From Balneolaceae bacterium (GTDB taxonomy: Bacteria; Bacteroidota; Rhodothermia; Balneolales; Balneolaceae), in assembly GCA_017640605.1 (NCBI GenBank), contig JAEPQH010000001.1:248001-312000 (forward strand): a stretch of DNA of 64,000 nt, written 5' to 3'. This document shows, in pieces, positions 33,952 to 42,339 of the stretch (its first letter is position 1; every line of letters starts with the position of its first letter). The notes below the pieces were generated by a model. It saw only the letters and a program-made list of their open reading frames with translations, ran no database searches and was not told the origin of the DNA. The position numbers and the translations under genes were made by a program.

Positions 33952-35115
33952 TTAAGCCGACTTTACCTCTGTTTTTGAAAATAGTGAAATCAGATCTTCA
34001 TCCTGCACTACTTTTTTCTCGTCGGCAATATTTAGAAATTCCTGATAATACCCTTCCATGTCTTCTCGGGTGACATTAAACCCAAGTTTTTTAGCACGAT
34101 AATTCAATGCCGCACGGCCACTTCTGGCGGTTAAAACGATAGAAGATTCATTTACCCCAACTTCATTCGGATCTATGATTTCGTAAGTCTCTCGTTTTTT
34201 GATGACTCCATCCTGATGTATTCCGGATGAATGTGCAAAAGCATTTGAGCCAACGATGGCTTTGTTGGGTTGAACGGGCATGCGCATTTTTGTAGCTACC
34301 AATTCACTCGTTGCTTTTAAACAACGTGTATTAATTCCGGTGTCGTGATTCAAATCCTGATGCTGACGCATAATCATCACCACTTCTTCTAACGATGCAT
34401 TTCCGGCACGTTCTCCTATACCATTTATGGTACACTCAATTTGACCAGCCCCGTTCACAACACCGGCAATCGAATTGGCAGTTGCTAAGCCTAAATCGTT
34501 GTGGCAGTGAGTAGAAATGATTGCTTTGTCGATACCCTTCACATTCTCTTTTAGGAATTTGATCTTTTCACCGTATTGCCATGGTAAGCAGTAACCGGTA
34601 GTATCCGGGATATTTACGACGGTTGCGCCGGCAGCAATAGCAGCTTCAATTACTTTCGCAAGAAACTCATTGTCGGTTCTTCCGGCATCCTCCGCATAAA
34701 ACTCTACATCTTCTACAAAACTTTTAGCCAATTTTACAGCAGCAACGCCCCGTTCAATTACTTTTTCGCGGGTACTTTTAAGTTTATCGTAGATATGGCT
34801 ATCAGAGGTTCCAATTCCGGTATGAATGCGTGGTCGTGCAGCTCCTTGTAATGCTTGAGCTGCTACTTCGATGTCTTTCGGTACAGCACGCGAAAGAGCA
34901 CAAACGGTAGTATTTTTAATTATTTGAGCAATTTTATGAACAGAATGGAAATCGCCCGGACTTGAAATCGGAAATCCAACTTCCATTACATCTACACCCA
35001 ACGCTTCCAGCGCCAGTGCTACTTCGATCTTTTCGTCCGTATTGAGCTGGCAGCCCGGGACTTGTTCTCCGTCGCGTAGTGTGGTGTCGAATATTTGAAT
35101 GCGTTTGTTTGGCAT
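33952..35115 (-). CDS. leuA: 2-isopropylmalate synthase, short form
   Basis: The N-terminal TIM barrel is clear: [14 protein letters not shown], the [13 protein letters not shown] metal site, [16 protein letters not shown], and [18 protein letters not shown]. It condenses acetyl-CoA with 2-oxoisovalerate. At 387 residues it lacks the about 130-residue LeuA dimer/allosteric domain of the E. coli-type enzyme (over 500 residues), ending shortly after the communication region. Either leucine feedback is absent or it works differently. Homocitrate synthase and citramalate synthase share this architecture, but position before leuC-leuD-leuB supports isopropylmalate synthase. Confidence 0.88.
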
Positions 35116-35292
35116 TTGTCTGTTGATTGCTGATTTTTAAACTTCTACTTACCGTTTGAGGTGTAAGTGATTGTCGCCGAAATTAGAATCGCTCTTAAAT
35201 TATCCGAAACCGCAATCTAATTATATTACAACACCCAAATTGGTATATGATGAAGGACACCATTGTTAACTCACTCATTTTATTTTGGATAT

Positions 35293-35308
35293 AGATATTT
35301 TTATATCT
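35293..35308. promoter_or_regulatory. AT-rich palindrome between leuA and the divergent gene
   Basis: AGATAT-TTTT-ATATCT is a perfect 6 bp inverted repeat in the 204 bp between leuA and the divergent helical-protein gene, 11 bp before the latter's ATG. It may be a regulator site or simply AT-rich promoter DNA. No leucine-rich leader peptide with terminator is visible before leuA. Confidence 0.3.
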
Positions 35309-35319
35309 AATTAATTACA

Positions 35320-36858
35320 ATGCCCAACCAACCAAACGACCATCTTTATCAGTTAATAAAATCGCTTACTAAGGCTGAAAAACGGTCATTTAAGATTTAT
35401 GCCACTCGCACAAGCTCTTCTGATGCGAAATTTATTCAGTTGTTTGATGCGATTGATAAAGCGAAAGAATACGACGAGGATGTTATTTGTTCTAAGATCA
35501 ATGATCTGAAAAAAGCCCAGTTTTCGAATCTGAAAGCACATCTCTACAAACAGATTCTTACGAGTCTACGGCTCAATTACACCAATCATAATATTGATAT
35601 TCAATTACGCGAGCAGATCGATTATGCGAGAATTCTGTACGATAAAGGATTGTACAAACAGAGCCTTAAAATTCTGGATAAAGCCAAGCAGCTATCAGCT
35701 CAAAATCATCGGATTACTTTAACTACTGAAATTTTGGGATTCGAAAAGCTTATCGAATCGCAGTATATCACACGAAGTTTGCGAAATCGGGCCGACGAGC
35801 TGATCGAACAAACCGAAGAATCGGTAAAATCGGTGGAGAGGTATCATGCACTATCAAATCTTTCGTTGCGATTATACGGGATTTACATAAAAGCAGGACA
35901 TGTTCGAAATGAGCGCGATTACGACATCACTAAGAAGTTCTTCGAGAATGCCCTTAAACAAATCGATCTAAATGATACCGACTTTTTCGATGAGCTCTAC
36001 TACAATGTATCGCATGCCTGGTACAGTTTGATCGTACAGGATTTTTTGATGCAGTATCGATACGCCCAAAAATGGGTAGAGCTGTTTCACACTAATCGTG
36101 ACATGCTGGAACTGGAGCCGATTTGGTACTTAAAAGGCATGCACGTTTTACTCGAAGCTTTGTTCATTTTAGGGCATCCGCAAAAACATGAAGAAGTAAT
36201 GCATCAACTGGAGGAATTTGTTCAAAACCCACCGGTTCGTTCTAATGAAAATCTTGAAACCTTAGGGTTCCAATACTATTACACGAGTAAGATCAACAGC
36301 TATTTTATGAATGGGCAGTTCGTTGATGGCTTATCCATAGTCACGCAATTGGAGAAACAGATTGAAAAGTATCAGCACAAAATAGATTCACATCGCGTTC
36401 TCGTTTTTTATTACAAAATCGCCTGTTTGTTTTTTGGAGCCGGCAAATTCAAAACTTGTATCACTTATCTAAATAAAATAATCAACTATCCTGATCCCAG
36501 ACTCCGTGAAGACATCCATTGCTTTGCCCGAATATTAAGCCTGATTGCTCATTTTGAACTTGGGAATCAGATCTTGGTAGAGTATCAGGTTCGAAGCACC
36601 TACCGCTTTATTCGAAAAATGAATGATCTGAACTCGGTTCAGGAAGAGATTCTCAAATTCCTACGAAATCTAAGCTCCGTTCGTCCCGATTATCTAAAAA
36701 AAGAATTCATCAAACTTCGAGATCGATTGCAACAAATTCAGGATCAACCCTATCAGCGCCGGGCTTTTTTGTACTTGGACATCATAGGATGGCTGGAATC
36801 TAAAATTGATGGAAAACCCATTCAGGACATCATTAAACAGCGTTTTCATCGAAGATAA
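35320..36858 (+). CDS. Large alpha-helical (TPR-like) cytoplasmic protein of unknown function
   Basis: The 512-residue protein has no signal peptide or membrane helix and is nearly all helical, with repeat-like helix pairs (YDKGLYKQSLKILDKAKQLS, FFENALKQIDLNDTDFF, LNKIINYPDPRLREDIHCFA) that suggest TPR-type packing. The N-terminus (LYQLIKSLTKAEKRSFKIYA) is a motif I have seen at the start of conserved Bacteroidota proteins without function. It lies between the leu and ilv operons, 110 bp before the ilv leader peptide and codirectional with it; a role in the pathway is not implied by its sequence. Confidence 0.7.
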   Translation: MPNQPNDHLYQLIKSLTKAEKRSFKIYATRTSSSDAKFIQLFDAIDKAKEYDEDVICSKINDLKKAQFSNLKAHLYKQILTSLRLNYTNHNIDIQLREQIDYARILYDKGLYKQSLKILDKAKQLSAQNHRITLTTEILGFEKLIESQYITRSLRNRADELIEQTEESVKSVERYHALSNLSLRLYGIYIKAGHVRNERDYDITKKFFENALKQIDLNDTDFFDELYYNVSHAWYSLIVQDFLMQYRYAQKWVELFHTNRDMLELEPIWYLKGMHVLLEALFILGHPQKHEEVMHQLEEFVQNPPVRSNENLETLGFQYYYTSKINSYFMNGQFVDGLSIVTQLEKQIEKYQHKIDSHRVLVFYYKIACLFFGAGKFKTCITYLNKIINYPDPRLREDIHCFARILSLIAHFELGNQILVEYQVRSTYRFIRKMNDLNSVQEEILKFLRNLSSVRPDYLKKEFIKLRDRLQQIQDQPYQRRAFLYLDIIGWLESKIDGKPIQDIIKQRFHRR

Positions 36859-36968
36859 TGATCTAAGTAAAAGGTTGGGCATCCCATTTTTATTCAGATT
36901 TATCCTCTATTTGCTTTGCGATTCCCAACGAATAGCTATTTCTTTGCTCTCAGATAAAAAACTCACTC

Positions 36969-37046
36969 ATGAAGAACTCTGTCATTCCTGTGGTCATTAT
37001 TAACGTTATTGGTTACATAAACCGATCCGGGAATGCTATTTGTTAA
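36969..37046 (+). CDS. ilvL: ilv operon leader peptide (25 codons, Val/Ile-rich)
   Basis: An ATG opens a 25-codon frame ending in TAA. Residues 5-17 read VIPVVIINVIGYI: nine of 13 are Val or Ile, and the whole peptide has 4 Val and 6 Ile but no Leu. It lies just before an antiterminator/terminator pair and the ilvD start, so it fits a ribosome-mediated attenuation leader that senses charged tRNA-Val and tRNA-Ile. The stop codon sits inside the stretch between the two antiterminator arms, as the mechanism requires: a ribosome reaching the stop would cover the upstream arm, while one stalled at the Val/Ile codons would leave it free. Confidence 0.88.
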   Translation: MKNSVIPVVIINVIGYINRSGNAIC

Positions 37047-37097
37047 TGTTACGATTACTACAAAATGAGCCTTCCCGGAACGGAAGGCTTTTTTTTT
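37022..37097 (+). promoter_or_regulatory. Attenuator of the ilv operon: antiterminator and terminator
   Basis: Terminator: AGCCTTCC (37068-37075) pairs perfectly with GGAAGGCT (37082-37089) around a 6 base loop and is followed by nine T. Antiterminator: TCCGGGAA (37026-37033) is the exact complement of TTCCCGGA (37072-37079), and CCG/CGG (37022-37024 with 37081-37083) extends it past one A-A mismatch to 11 of 12 pairs. The two structures share the 37072-37083 strand, so only one can form. The upstream arm lies inside codons 18-22 of the leader peptide. Confidence 0.88.
37068..37097 (+). terminator. Intrinsic terminator inside the ilv leader
   Basis: Perfect 8 bp GC-rich stem, 6 base loop and T9 tract, located between the leader peptide and ilvD, 16 bp before the ilvD start codon. 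A long ATG-initiated reading of ilvD would translate straight through it and give the odd residues EGFFFEH, which supports the downstream start. Confidence 0.92.
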
Positions 37098-37112: not shown

Positions 37113-38792
37113 ATGGCGGAATTAAATAAATACAGTAAACAGATAACTCAAGACGGTTCACAACCGGCTGCACAGGCAATGCTTCATGCACTCGGTTTAA
37201 GTGATGAAGATCTGAATAAACCGCTTGTTGGTATCGCAAGCACAGGCTACGAAGGTAATCCGTGCAACATGCACCTTAATGATTTAGCAGTACATGTAAA
37301 ACGTGGTGTTAACACCAATCAACAAACCGGTTTGATCTTTAATACCATTGGAATTAGCGACGGCATTTCGATGGGAACACCCGGAATGCGGTATTCTCTC
37401 CCTTCACGTGATATCATCGCAGATTCGATGGAATCGGTGGTTGAAGGAATGAGCTATGATGCCATGGTTGCCATTGTTGGATGCGATAAGAATATGCCGG
37501 GCGCTTTAATGGCCATGCTGCGTGTGAATCGACCCGCAATTCTAGTGTATGGCGGAACCATTGCGCCGGGCTATCATAATGGACAAAAACTAGATGTTGT
37601 TTCGGCATTTGAAGCTTGGGGACAAAAAGTTTCAGGCTCCATCGATGATCAGGAATTCAAAGATATTGTGATGAATGCCTGCCCCGGACCTGGAGCTTGT
37701 GGTGGAATGTACACCGCAAACACCATGGCATCGGCGATAGAAGCAATGGGGATGGCACTCCCTTACAATGCGTCCAATCCTGCAAACGCTGCCGAAAAAG
37801 TGCTCGAATGTGAAGCAGTTGGAACACACTTAATAGAGTTGCTCAAAAAAGATTTAAAACCGAAAGACATTCTCACCAAAAAGTCGCTGGAAAATGCTTT
37901 TCGATTAATCACCGTTCTTGGTGGGTCTACCAACGCCGTGCTTCATTTACTGGCTATTGCAAAAACAGCTGGCATCGAATTTACTTTAAAGGATTTCCAG
38001 AAAATCAGCGACGAAACTCCTTTTTTAGGTGATTTGAAGCCAAGTGGGCGTTATGTGATGGAAGATTTACACAAAGTAGGCGGCATTCCGGCGGTAATGA
38101 AATTCATGCTTGAAAACAACATGTTGCATGGCGATTGCCTCACCGTTACCGGAAAAACAATTGCTGAGAATTTAGCCGAAGTGGACGGATTACAAATAGA
38201 TCAGGATGTAATCCGACCTGTGGATCAACCGATCAAAGAAAACGGCCATATCCAGATTTTGTATGGGAATATCGCCACAGAAGGCGCCGTTGCCAAAATC
38301 ACCGGAAAAGAAGGAGTTCGATTTAGCGGTCCTGCCCGGATTTTTAACAGCGAAGAAGAAGCCAATGAGGGCATCCAAAACGGAAAAGTTCGTAAAGGCG
38401 AGGTAATAATTATCCGTTATGTGGGGCCTAAAGGTGGTCCCGGAATGCCTGAAATGCTAAAACCAACCTCCGCCATCATGGGCGCTGGACTTGGCAAGGA
38501 AGTTGCACTGATTACCGACGGAAGATTCTCGGGTGGATCGCACGGCTTTGTAGTTGGGCATGTAACTCCGGAAGCTCAGGTTGGTGGCAACATCGCCTTA
38601 GTGCAAGACGGCGATCCTATTCGTATCGATGCAGAATCCAATGAAATTGAAATTGAAATTAGTGATGCAGAACTCGCATCCAGAAGAAAACAATGGCAAG
38701 AACCACCGCTTAAAGCAAAAAGTGGAACCTTGTATAAATATGCCAAAACCGTTAGCTCAGCATCCGAAGGCTGCGTTACCGACGAGTTTTAA
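37113..38792 (+). CDS. ilvD: Dihydroxy-acid dehydratase
   Basis: A 559-residue IlvD/Edd-family protein. Cluster cysteines are seen in [18 protein letters not shown] and [17 protein letters not shown]; the C-terminal block [22 protein letters not shown] is the second family signature. It dehydrates dihydroxy-isovalerate and -methylvalerate for Val, Leu and Ile. I start at [10 protein letters not shown] because an ATG 48 bp upstream would place an intrinsic terminator within the coding sequence. It leads the ilvD-ilvB-ilvN-ilvC operon behind an attenuator. Confidence 0.95.
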
Positions 38793-38810
38793 TCCAAACG
38801 GCACACAATT

Positions 38811-40550
38811 ATGAATACCATAGAGGCCCCTTCAAAAATGGAAACAAAATCAACGAAAACCACCGAAAGAGTTACCGGTGCAGATGCTGTTGTCCGGATT
38901 TTGCTGCAAGAAGGCGTGGATCTTGTTTTTGGATATCCCGGCGGTGCGATTATGCCGGTATATGATTCTTTGTACGATTATCAGGATAAAATTCATCACG
39001 TACTAGCCCGCCACGAACAAGGTGCAACTCATGCTGCTCAAGGCTACGCGCGAGCTTCGGGTAAAGTTGGTGTTTGTCTGGCTACTTCCGGTCCGGGCGC
39101 AACCAACTTGATAACAGGTTTAGCCGATGCCCAAATAGACTCCACTCCTATGGTTTGCATCACCGGTCAGGTTCCTTCTGCTTTATTAGGATCGGATGCT
39201 TTTCAGGAAACCGATGTAATTGGAATTTCTATGCCGGTTACCAAATGGAATACACAAGTTACACGAGCCGAAGAAATTCCCGAGGCGTTAGCTAAGGCAT
39301 TTTATATCGCAAAATCAGGGCGACCAGGCCCGGTGTTGGTCGACATCACCAAAGATGCACAGTTCCAGGAATTCGATTTCAATTACGAAAAATGTACCGG
39401 ACTTCGAAGTTATGTTCCCGTACCGGAATTGGATCAAACCAAAGTACAAGAAGCCGCTGATTTGATTAATAATGCGGAACGGCCTTACATCCTATTCGGA
39501 CAAGGCGTGATTTTAGGGAATGCCGAGAAAGAATTTAAAACCTTCATCGAAAAGACCGGAATCCCTTCGGCATGGACCATAATGGGGCTTTCCGCTTTGG
39601 AAACCGATCATCCACTAAATGTTGGGATGTTGGGCATGCACGGAAATTACGGGCCTAATCTACTAACCAACGAATGCGATGTATTGATTGCCATTGGGAT
39701 GCGATTTGATGATCGGGTAACCGGAAATCTGGACAAATACGCCAAGCAGGCTAAAGTGATTCATCTGGAAATTGATCCCGCTGAAATCGACAAAAATGTG
39801 AATACCGATGTGGCAGTTTTGGGAGATTGTAAGGAGTCGCTTACAGAGCTGACTAAATTGGTTGAACCAAAATCGCATGATAAATGGCTGCAACGATTCA
39901 GAGATTGCGATGCGATGGAACAGGAAAAAGTGATTCAAAACGAATTGCATCCTACCACCGATTTATTGTCGATGGGCGAAGTGATTCGAATTATTAACGA
40001 AAAAACCAATGGCGATGCAATTTTAGTTACCGATGTAGGCCAACACCAGATGGTTGCCTGCCGATACACTAAATTCAACCAATCGAAAAGTAATATTACC
40101 AGTGGCGGATTAGGTACCATGGGTTTCGGCTTACCTGCAGGATTGGGAGCAGCACTTGGAGCGCCTGATCGAACTGTGGTTACCGTAATTGGTGATGGCG
40201 GTCTTCAAATGACCATTCAGGAATTTGCCACGATTTACCAGACCAGAGCAAAAGTGAAAGTTCTCCTATTAAATAACGAGTTTTTGGGCATGGTACGGCA
40301 ATGGCAACAACTCTTTTTTGATAAGAGATACAGCGCAACTGAAATGATCAACCCGGATTTCCAAACGATTGCAAAAGGATATCATATCCCTACCAACAAA
40401 GTTACCGAACGGGATAAATTGGACGAAGCAATAACTGAATTCATCAATCATGACGGCGCTTACTTTTTGGAAGTGATGGTCGGAAAAGAAAACAATGTAT
40501 TTCCAATGGTTCCCAGCGGAAGCGGCGTTGCAGAAATCAGATTGGAGTGA
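38811..40550 (+). CDS. ilvB: Acetolactate synthase, large (catalytic) subunit
   Basis: A 579-residue ThDP enzyme of the usual three-domain form: activating Glu in ARHEQGATHAAQGYARASGK, FAD/acetohydroxyacid region in the middle (ALETDHPLNVGMLGMHG), and the ThDP-binding GDGGLQMTIQEFATI followed by NNEFLGMVRQWQQLFF. It makes acetolactate or acetohydroxybutyrate. It lies 18 bp after ilvD. The first about 20 residues are a charged extension; an internal Met at residue 10 is an alternative start. Confidence 0.96.
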   Translation: MNTIEAPSKMETKSTKTTERVTGADAVVRILLQEGVDLVFGYPGGAIMPVYDSLYDYQDKIHHVLARHEQGATHAAQGYARASGKVGVCLATSGPGATNLITGLADAQIDSTPMVCITGQVPSALLGSDAFQETDVIGISMPVTKWNTQVTRAEEIPEALAKAFYIAKSGRPGPVLVDITKDAQFQEFDFNYEKCTGLRSYVPVPELDQTKVQEAADLINNAERPYILFGQGVILGNAEKEFKTFIEKTGIPSAWTIMGLSALETDHPLNVGMLGMHGNYGPNLLTNECDVLIAIGMRFDDRVTGNLDKYAKQAKVIHLEIDPAEIDKNVNTDVAVLGDCKESLTELTKLVEPKSHDKWLQRFRDCDAMEQEKVIQNELHPTTDLLSMGEVIRIINEKTNGDAILVTDVGQHQMVACRYTKFNQSKSNITSGGLGTMGFGLPAGLGAALGAPDRTVVTVIGDGGLQMTIQEFATIYQTRAKVKVLLLNNEFLGMVRQWQQLFFDKRYSATEMINPDFQTIAKGYHIPTNKVTERDKLDEAITEFINHDGAYFLEVMVGKENNVFPMVPSGSGVAEIRLE

Positions 40551-40670
40551 CAATATGGAACTGATTAGTCAACCGAGCGCGCTCTGTAGAGAGTATATAT
40601 TCCTAAACTCCAACGTTCTCTTAGAACGGACTTTCGAATTTCATCCACAGCTTCTAAAGCTCTATTAATT

Positions 40671-41210
40671 ATGGAAAAAAGAGAATTCACTATTACCGCT
40701 TACACCGAAAACACGGTTGGATTACTACATCGAATTACCATCATTTTCACTAAGCGAAAAATCAATATCGAAAGTATTACCGCTTCTGAAAGTGAGATGG
40801 AAAACATCTACCGGTTTACAATTGCGGTTACTGAAACCGAAGAATTGGTCGGTAAAGTAGTAAAACAAATTGAAAAGCTCGTGGAAGTTCATAAAGCCGC
40901 TTATTTCAAAAAAGAGGAAGTGGTTCAGCAGGAACTAGCATTATATAAACTGGCTACCGAATCACTCACAAATGGTTTAGAAGTTGAGCGGATCGTCAGA
41001 GAACATTCAGCTCGTTTTTTAACCATCGAAAAGAATTTTGTGGTGATTGAAAAAGCAGGATATAGACGCGAAGCTTTTGCCCTATTCGACGAACTTAAAC
41101 CATTTGGAATCAAAGAATTTGTACTCTCAGGCAGAGTGGCTGTAAGCCGAGCTGAGCATGGAATCGGCGCAGAAGTTCGCGAATTGTTACAGGCCGAAAC
41201 GAACACGTAA
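40671..41210 (+). CDS. ilvN: Acetolactate synthase, small (regulatory) subunit
   Basis: A 179-residue protein with an N-terminal ACT domain (TAYTENTVGLLHRITIIFTKRKINIESITAS split here by strands) and the C-terminal ALS small-subunit domain (ILVREHS-like VEVHKAAYFKKEEV, ENFVVIEKAGYRREAFAL region). It binds valine and stimulates and feedback-controls IlvB. The 120 bp gap after ilvB holds no gene; it contains the small inverted repeat CGTTCT/AGAACG. Confidence 0.92.
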   Translation: MEKREFTITAYTENTVGLLHRITIIFTKRKINIESITASESEMENIYRFTIAVTETEELVGKVVKQIEKLVEVHKAAYFKKEEVVQQELALYKLATESLTNGLEVERIVREHSARFLTIEKNFVVIEKAGYRREAFALFDELKPFGIKEFVLSGRVAVSRAEHGIGAEVRELLQAETNT

Positions 41211-41292
41211 AATCACCAAAAAAGTCACACTAATTGTGTGAAAGGGTTCAAACACTTTTTATTCATATAAATAATCAAAACAACTATCTAAT

Positions 41293-42339
41293 ATGGCAAT
41301 TTTAAATTTTGGCGGGGTCGAAGAAGTAGTAGTAACCCGTGAAGAATTTCCACTGAAACGTGCACAAAAAACTCTGGCTGAGGAAACCATCGCAGTGATT
41401 GGTTATGGAGTTCAGGGTCCCGGACAAGCATTAAATCTTCGCGATAATGGGTTTAATGTAATCGTAGGACAACGAAAAGAATCTAAAACCTGGGATAAAG
41501 CAATAGCTGATGGCTGGGTTCCCGGCGAAACCCTGTTCGAAATTGAAGAAGCGTGTGAGCGTGGAACCATAATTCAATATTTGCTTTCTGATGCAGGTCA
41601 GATCACGCTTTGGCCAACGGTTAAAAAGCACCTTACTGCCGGAAAAGCGCTGTATTTTTCTCATGGCTTTGGCATCACCTATAAAGAACGAACCGGAATT
41701 ATACCACCGGAAGATGTAGATGTGATTCTTGTTGCTCCAAAAGGTTCAGGAACATCCCTTCGACGCATGTTTTTAGAAGGTCGTGGGTTAAATTCCAGCT
41801 TCGCCATTTTCCAGGATGCTACAGGAAATGCGTTAGATCGTGTGGTCGCACTCGGTATTGGAGTAGGATCCGGATATCTGTTCGAAACCGATTTTAAACG
41901 CGAAGTATATTCTGATTTAACCGGCGAGCGTGGTACGTTGATGGGTGCCATTCAAGGAATATTTGCTGCTCAGTATGAAGTATTGCGTGCAAATGGTCAC
42001 ACCCCTTCGGAAGCTTTTAATGAAACGGTGGAAGAACTCACTCAATCGTTGATGCCATTAGTTGCAGAGAATGGAATGGACTGGATGTACGCCAACTGCT
42101 CCACTACCGCTCAGCGTGGTGCACTGGATTGGTGGAAGAAATTCCGGGATGCAAGTAAGCCCGTGTTCCAAGAATTGTATAGCGAAGTAGCTGCCGGAAA
42201 CGAAGCTCAGCGCTCAATCGATTCGAATTCGCAGCATGATTACCGCGAAAAACTAGAAAAAGAACTCGAAGAATTACGAGAATCCGAAATGTGGCAAGCC
42301 GGACAAACGGTTCGAACTTTGAGACCAGAGAACGGGTAA
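41293..42339 (+). CDS. ilvC: Ketol-acid reductoisomerase
   Basis: A 348-residue KARI. The nucleotide motif VIGYGVQGPGQALNLRDNG replaces the common GYGSQGHAHALNLRDSG, and the cofactor loop GQRKESKTWDKA carries Arg and Ser expected for NADPH. Metal-binding acidic residues are in TDFKREVYSDLTGERGTLMG and in the C-terminal helices (ANCSTTAQRGALDWW). It rearranges and reduces acetolactate. The divergent P-loop-like motif is typical of the Bacteroidota branch as far as I recall. The 82 bp before it contain TCACAC/GTGTGA, a small hairpin. Confidence 0.92.
   Translation: MAILNFGGVEEVVVTREEFPLKRAQKTLAEETIAVIGYGVQGPGQALNLRDNGFNVIVGQRKESKTWDKAIADGWVPGETLFEIEEACERGTIIQYLLSDAGQITLWPTVKKHLTAGKALYFSHGFGITYKERTGIIPPEDVDVILVAPKGSGTSLRRMFLEGRGLNSSFAIFQDATGNALDRVVALGIGVGSGYLFETDFKREVYSDLTGERGTLMGAIQGIFAAQYEVLRANGHTPSEAFNETVEELTQSLMPLVAENGMDWMYANCSTTAQRGALDWWKKFRDASKPVFQELYSEVAAGNEAQRSIDSNSQHDYREKLEKELEELRESEMWQAGQTVRTLRPENG

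Follow-up and report, generated by a model that had tools for sequence, protein, structure and literature searches.

The ilvDBNC operon of a Balneolaceae bacterium (GCA_017640605.1, contig JAEPQH010000001.1) is preceded by what we take, with a probability of about 0.93, to be a ribosome-mediated transcription attenuator. The stretch analysed, referred to as the window, comprises 64,000 nt (positions 248,001-312,000 of the forward strand), and family models identified ilvD, ilvB, ilvN and ilvC as an operon at 37113-42339 on the plus strand. Between the end of the upstream gene (36858) and ilvD lie a 25-codon open reading frame (ORF) rich in Val and Ile codons and, following it, an intrinsic terminator (Table 1). 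Such a switch would very probably let the bacterium turn on its Val- and Ile-making genes only when those amino acids are short. Sequence comparison indicates that relatives of this bacterium have the same switch and that variants of it occur across Bacteroidota.

Leader peptide, RNA strands and predicted folding

A first-pass annotation of this DNA had described a leader ORF of 25 codons, of which 4 encode Val and 6 encode Ile, with nine of these ten clustered, and these counts were confirmed. The ORF, MKNSVIPVVIINVIGYINRSGNAIC, begins with ATG at 36969 and stops with TAA at 37044-37046; nine of the ten Val/Ile codons fall within VIPVVIINVIGYI and eight within codons 5-14, with Ile 17 and Ile 24 lying outside the latter. 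A short leader with clustered cognate codons thus stands before its cognate operon, and the frame is conserved in the predicted translations of 20 ATG-type Balneolaceae leaders. On either strand of the window, this was the single instance of a leader rich in Val, Ile or Leu followed by a terminator, and none was found in 20 shuffled windows.

The perfect 8 bp terminator with a T9 tract reported previously was recovered at 37068-37097, where AGCCTTCC (37068-37075) pairs with GGAAGGCT (37082-37089) and the T9 tract occupies 37089-37097. The upstream strand said to pair with the terminator over 11 of 12 positions does so, TCCGGGAATGCT (37026-37037) matching 37068-37079 with the exception of 37034:37071. 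Its arm corresponds to codons 20-23 and not to codons 18-22 as first assigned. An additional strand missed earlier (36983-36995) pairs with 37024-37035, so that the 1:2, 2:3 and 3:4 set is complete and none of the four strands known from classic attenuators is missing. The leader RNA had a minimum free energy z-score of -3.3, and 0 of 200 shuffles were as stable.

Folding was computed with the ribosome modelled as a masked stretch. For the window RNA, the probability of pairing 2:3 was 0.85-0.99 with the A site at codons 4-14, a stretch that holds eight of the ten Val/Ile codons. With the A site anywhere between codon 17 and the stop codon, 3:4 had a probability of 0.99. Without a ribosome, 3:4 had a probability of 0.95 and coexisted with 1:2. 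The antiterminator and terminator are therefore mutually exclusive by computation, with the regulatory codons placed such that a stalled ribosome frees strand 2 and a terminating ribosome masks it; here the logic proposed in the first-pass annotation stood.

From this anatomy, its conservation and the computed folds, we infer a transcription start, termination in vivo and a response to Val and Ile as follows. RNA polymerase would start near 36953 and a ribosome would translate the leader. On a shortage of Val-tRNA or Ile-tRNA, the ribosome would stall with its A site at one of codons 5-14 and cover strand 1, so that strand 2 could pair with strand 3 once the latter emerges; the 2:3 hairpin would block the terminator and the operon would be transcribed. 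When charged tRNAs are plentiful, the ribosome would reach the stop codon and cover strand 2, allowing 3:4 to form and transcription to end near 37097. If the leader is not translated, 1:2 would form and termination would again result.

Conservation among relatives

A family search covered 92 genomes, and 27 of them have an ilvD that shares 76% identity or more with that of the window. After minus-strand loci were reoriented, a Val/Ile-rich leader with terminator was found at 26 of these 27 Balneolaceae loci. Leaders of the ATG type can be aligned between genera; their GTCATTAT core is invariant, and the terminator and tail are nearly so. In one lineage (L007 and its relatives) the leader has diverged and starts with TTG. 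Stem 3:4 and the GGGAA/TTCCC core of 2:3 are nearly invariant in the family, the outer three pairs of 2:3 being lineage-specific and present in few relatives. Stem 1:2 is more variable, and its covariation score was equalled in 1 of 500 shuffles.

These alignments also bear on whether the hairpin might be a mere terminator of the upstream gene (35320-36858), with the Val/Ile-rich ORF arising by chance. That gene is on the same strand and ends 210 nt before the hairpin, but a conserved promoter-like element sits between the two. Moreover, the leader, strands 1 and 2 and the terminator are conserved together as a set that shuffles fail to reproduce, and we consider this explanation very improbable.

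Several results weigh against an attenuator or narrow its support. No leader was detected at locus L132, the sole exception among the 27 loci. Within Balneolaceae, only one double change was observed in 3:4, making the compensatory evidence thin, and covariation in 2:3 was not above that of shuffles. At full-length equilibrium, the switch appeared in 9 of 56 leaders (0 of 448 shuffles), most relatives' models favouring the terminator at every ribosome position. When the leaders of relatives were instead folded as RNA cut immediately upstream of strand 4, the switch was predicted for all 27 Balneolales leaders and for 44 of 56 leaders overall, compared with 13 of 336 shuffles. For the mechanism to work, 2:3 has to form before strand 4 has been transcribed. 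Few switches at equilibrium would be expected of a kinetic mechanism, yet they also limit the evidence. In the cut RNA without a ribosome the model favoured 2:3 over 1:2, so the prediction for an untranslated leader assumes that 1:2 forms first.

Because Balneolaceae are too conserved to test 2:3, strands were swapped between loci across families, using 41 leaders. The energy of pairing 2:3 was -11.3 kcal/mol with own strands vs -7.7 kcal/mol with swapped strands, and that of pairing 1:2 was -15.0 vs -11.4 kcal/mol. In each case 0 of 100,000 permutations were as good, although these values ignore relatedness and their exact size is unreliable, which belongs with the points against. Relatives share strands, which strengthens the swapped set and makes the comparison conservative. 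The strands thus appear to be coadapted across Bacteroidota. Within Balneolaceae, the alignment proposed as a check in the first-pass annotation showed a conserved leader and terminator, with few compensatory changes and weak covariation in 3:4 and 2:3.

The claim that the leader senses Val and Ile but not Leu held for leader codons in this genus (that of genomes G000 and G001), as neither the leader of the window nor that of the sister species has a Leu codon. It did not extend to relatives: apart from part of genus g17, ATG-type relatives mostly have leaders with 1-2 Leu codons, and the L009 leader carries many.

Beyond the family, a Val/Ile/Leu leader with terminator lay within 500 nt of 30 of 109 ilvD genes (1 of 2180 shuffles), an undercount as some minus-strand loci were not turned. 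Further leaders with terminators were found about 1.1 kb upstream of ilvD, presumably before a preceding gene. At loci L053, L054 and L065 (Gaetbulibacter, Aquimarina and Lutibacter), two leader-plus-terminator units follow one another ahead of ilvD. Their leader peptides differ (such as MQKQILNIISIISVVIISQR and MKYIVNIIIIAIINSS), and the units are possible tandem attenuators. Two contigs labelled Thalassovita (L066) and Candidatus Planktophila (L083) carry an ilvD that falls inside Bacteroidota, the former with an upstream leader and terminator; both are probably misbinned metagenome contigs.

Choice of Val codon was compared at 36 ilvD loci, that of L001 included. GTC occurred in 32 of 36 leaders, vs 7.4 expected from each ilvD's own usage (simulated mean; maximum 15), and made up 46 of 101 leader Val codons vs 8.3 expected, often within GTC-ATT-ATT. 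By comparison, GTC accounts for 6% of Val codons in the window ORFs. One gene each for tRNA-Val GAC and TAC was detected in the genome among the 150 of 281 candidates that were scored. It is conceivable, though we would not favour it, that branched-chain attenuators of Bacteroidota and Balneolota hold the sensing Val codon as rare GTC, and that the switch would report charging of tRNA-Val(GAC) rather than of valine tRNAs generally. Shared ancestry and base pairing of GTC remain partial explanations of the bias; the third base of GTC was paired at 0.63 vs 0.57 for other codons. The GTC bias points the same way as the codon preference discussed for attenuators of E. coli (PMC1183508). If the proposal is true, these leaders would form an extensive natural collection on which to test the selective-charging theory of attenuator codon choice.

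Predicted promoter, operator-like box and surrounding genes

Promoters of Bacteroidota follow a -33/-7 pattern with TAnnTTTG. A conserved element, TTG-N20-TTT[C/A]TTTG, stands directly before the leader and closely resembles this pattern; the inferred transcription start would lie near 36953. Upstream of the predicted promoter is a box, TTGGNNATCCCA, which in the window is a TGGG-CAT-CCCA palindrome and may be an operator. The box is present in the window and at L002-L006, L130, L133, L136, L140, L141 and L143-L146, and its distance to the promoter TTG is nearly fixed (41-42 nt, start to start). Of 39 genomes, 6 contained the combination of box and promoter pattern, each of them exactly once and always before the ilvD leader, and a reversed-pattern control gave 0 matches.

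This single occurrence and nearly fixed spacing would be expected if ilvDBNC were controlled mainly at initiation, by a protein binding the box, with the attenuator playing a minor part. Such control leaves the leader codons and the alternative stems unexplained, and we regard it as unlikely; the candidate operator is more likely to be a second layer of regulation than a rival to attenuation.

The attenuator analysis also corrected the start of ilvD. The frame from 37065 reads MSLPG in the window and MSLP-stop in the sister species, and ilvD of relatives is conserved from MAELNKYSK onward. On these grounds the true start is assigned to 37113 and the extended start at 37065 is false, as the first-pass annotation had proposed.

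Table 1. Features of the ilvDBNC leader region and operon (positions within the window)
Feature	Positions	Strand	Basis or remark
Operator-like box GTTGGGCATCCCA (TTGGNNATCCCA)	36874..36886	+	TTGG start 41 nt upstream of promoter TTG
Predicted Bacteroidota-type promoter TTG-N20-TTTCTTTG	36916..36946	+	Spacing shared by L001-L006 and most other ATG-type Balneolaceae leaders
Leader peptide ORF MKNSVIPVVIINVIGYINRSGNAIC	36969..37046	+	Read from sequence; conserved in relatives
Strand 1 (protector) CATTCCTGTGGTC	36983..36995	+	Pairs with strand 2; RNA fold; codons 5-9
Strand 2 GATCCGGGAATGCT	37024..37037	+	Can pair with either strand 1 or strand 3; codons 19-23
Strand 3 AGCCTTCCCGGA	37068..37079	+	Terminator 5' arm and loop bases; antiterminator partner
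Strand 4 GGAAGGCT and T9 tract, intrinsic terminator	37082..37097	+	Stem 100% paired in 20 Balneolaceae
ilvD	37113..38792	+	TIGR00110, 765 bits; starts MAELNKYSK...; N-terminus conserved
ilvB, acetolactate synthase large subunit	38811..40550	+	TIGR00118
ilvN, acetolactate synthase small subunit	40671..41210	+	TIGR00119
ilvC, ketol-acid reductoisomerase	41293..42339	+	TIGR00465

Gene order ilvD-B-N-C was kept in the 7 attenuator-bearing relatives checked, as was the whole neighbourhood (leuC-leuA, the 35320 gene, the attenuator and ilvD-B-N-C). The 35320-36858 gene, which adjoins the attenuator in those 7 relatives, encodes a protein of 512 aa that matches no Pfam family; its match to the BT2802 family falls below threshold (151 vs 550 bits). 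LeuA (33952-35115, minus strand, 387 aa) matched 2-isopropylmalate synthase models over the first ~380 of ~500 positions only, and appears to be without the C-terminal part that bears the regulatory domain in long LeuA. A search by eye of the region before leuA (35116-35319) found no leucine leader.

In a quick ilvD tree with many open forks, the attenuator-bearing Balneolaceae formed one clade, which was placed with Flavobacteriaceae (SH-aLRT 94), and a second Balneolales clade stood separate from it. In those members of this second clade that were checked, ilvD lies beside a divergently oriented ilvBNC-leuA cluster of much lower similarity (about 45% for ilvB and 26-36% for its other genes), and no leader with terminator was found in their intergenic stretch. 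Most simply, the ilvDBNC cluster and its attenuator were probably acquired together from a Flavobacteriaceae-like donor.

Other leaders and known attenuation systems

The host seems to use attenuation elsewhere, since a Trp leader (MQIKGLNKTAWWWPVDESTAGLLH, containing WWW) with a terminator precedes trpE in the same genome (L181 reverse complement 1250-1390, G000:C26); there, AACAGCGGG in the leader is complementary to the terminator arm CCCGCTGTT. Before hisG (L180 1329-1400, G000:C5), a GTG-start ORF with 9 His of 23, VNSTLHHTSSIHHDRHLGHHHVH, directly follows a promoter-like element, TATCTTTG. No intrinsic terminator was found before hisG at this locus, and the ORF may be a His leader acting in another way. 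No Thr/Ile leader with terminator was evident upstream of three aspartate kinase genes.

A T-box, metabolite riboswitch or other aptamer could in principle drive the ilvDBNC terminator, but nothing in favour of one was found. No Rfam family scored above its cut-off in the window: the T-box model gave no match, none of the amino acid leader families (such as Leu, Phe, Trp and His leaders) reached its gathering threshold, and the best weak match at the leader was Phe_leader with 21.3 bits against a cut-off of 55. In addition, the leader and its strands occupy almost the entire stretch from the inferred start to the terminator. We give such an aptamer next to no weight.

A 2004 survey by Vitreschak et al. 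reportedly lists Bacteroidetes/Chlorobi attenuator candidates. No dedicated paper on ilv attenuators in Bacteroidetes was found in the literature searched. Clues to leader-peptide attenuation have been published for Flavobacterium (PMC9723704). In the accessible text of published Bacteroidota leader-peptide predictions, the Balneolaceae ilvDBNC leader is not described, and it has no Rfam family. The Corynebacterium ilvBNC attenuator and ilvB-II uORF likewise combine a leader ORF and attenuator controlling ilv genes (PMC10272879, PMC11857589). They belong to Actinobacteria with another operon order, and the comparison is by description.

Amino acid synthesis regulation has been little studied in Balneolota and Bacteroidota, and no Rfam model marks these leaders. 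Our results place classic leader-peptide attenuation in Balneolota, and widely in Bacteroidota, with comparative support. They also supply numerous naturally occurring variants, rich in Ile, Val or Leu and either single or tandem, in which to test leader codon choice.

The closest likeness is to ilvGMEDA (ilvL) and ilvBN (ivbL) of E. coli, which share with the window a cognate-rich leader, alternative hairpins and an intrinsic terminator before a branched-chain operon. Under the ribosome-masking model, the ilvL and ivbL leaders, with terminator arms set by hand, gave a similar but noisier profile. Some Balneolaceae leaders resemble E. coli IlvL (ISLVVISVV / ISLVIISVI), but we do not claim homology, as shuffling showed the resemblance to be weak for L003/L004 and absent for the window leader. 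The E. coli systems belong to another phylum and have a leader of 32 rather than 25 codons, and no sequence or Rfam family joins them to the window attenuator, which lacks Leu codons in its leader and has ilvD as its first gene. The suggestion of the first-pass annotation that ilvGMEDA/ilvBN-like attenuation operates here is supported by the conserved leader and terminator, the exclusive folds, strand coadaptation, the promoter-like element and the non-conserved 37065 frame. As attenuation is classic in E. coli, has left clues in Flavobacterium and is here without an Rfam match, the ilvDBNC switch is a well-supported new example of the classic mechanism and not a new mechanism.
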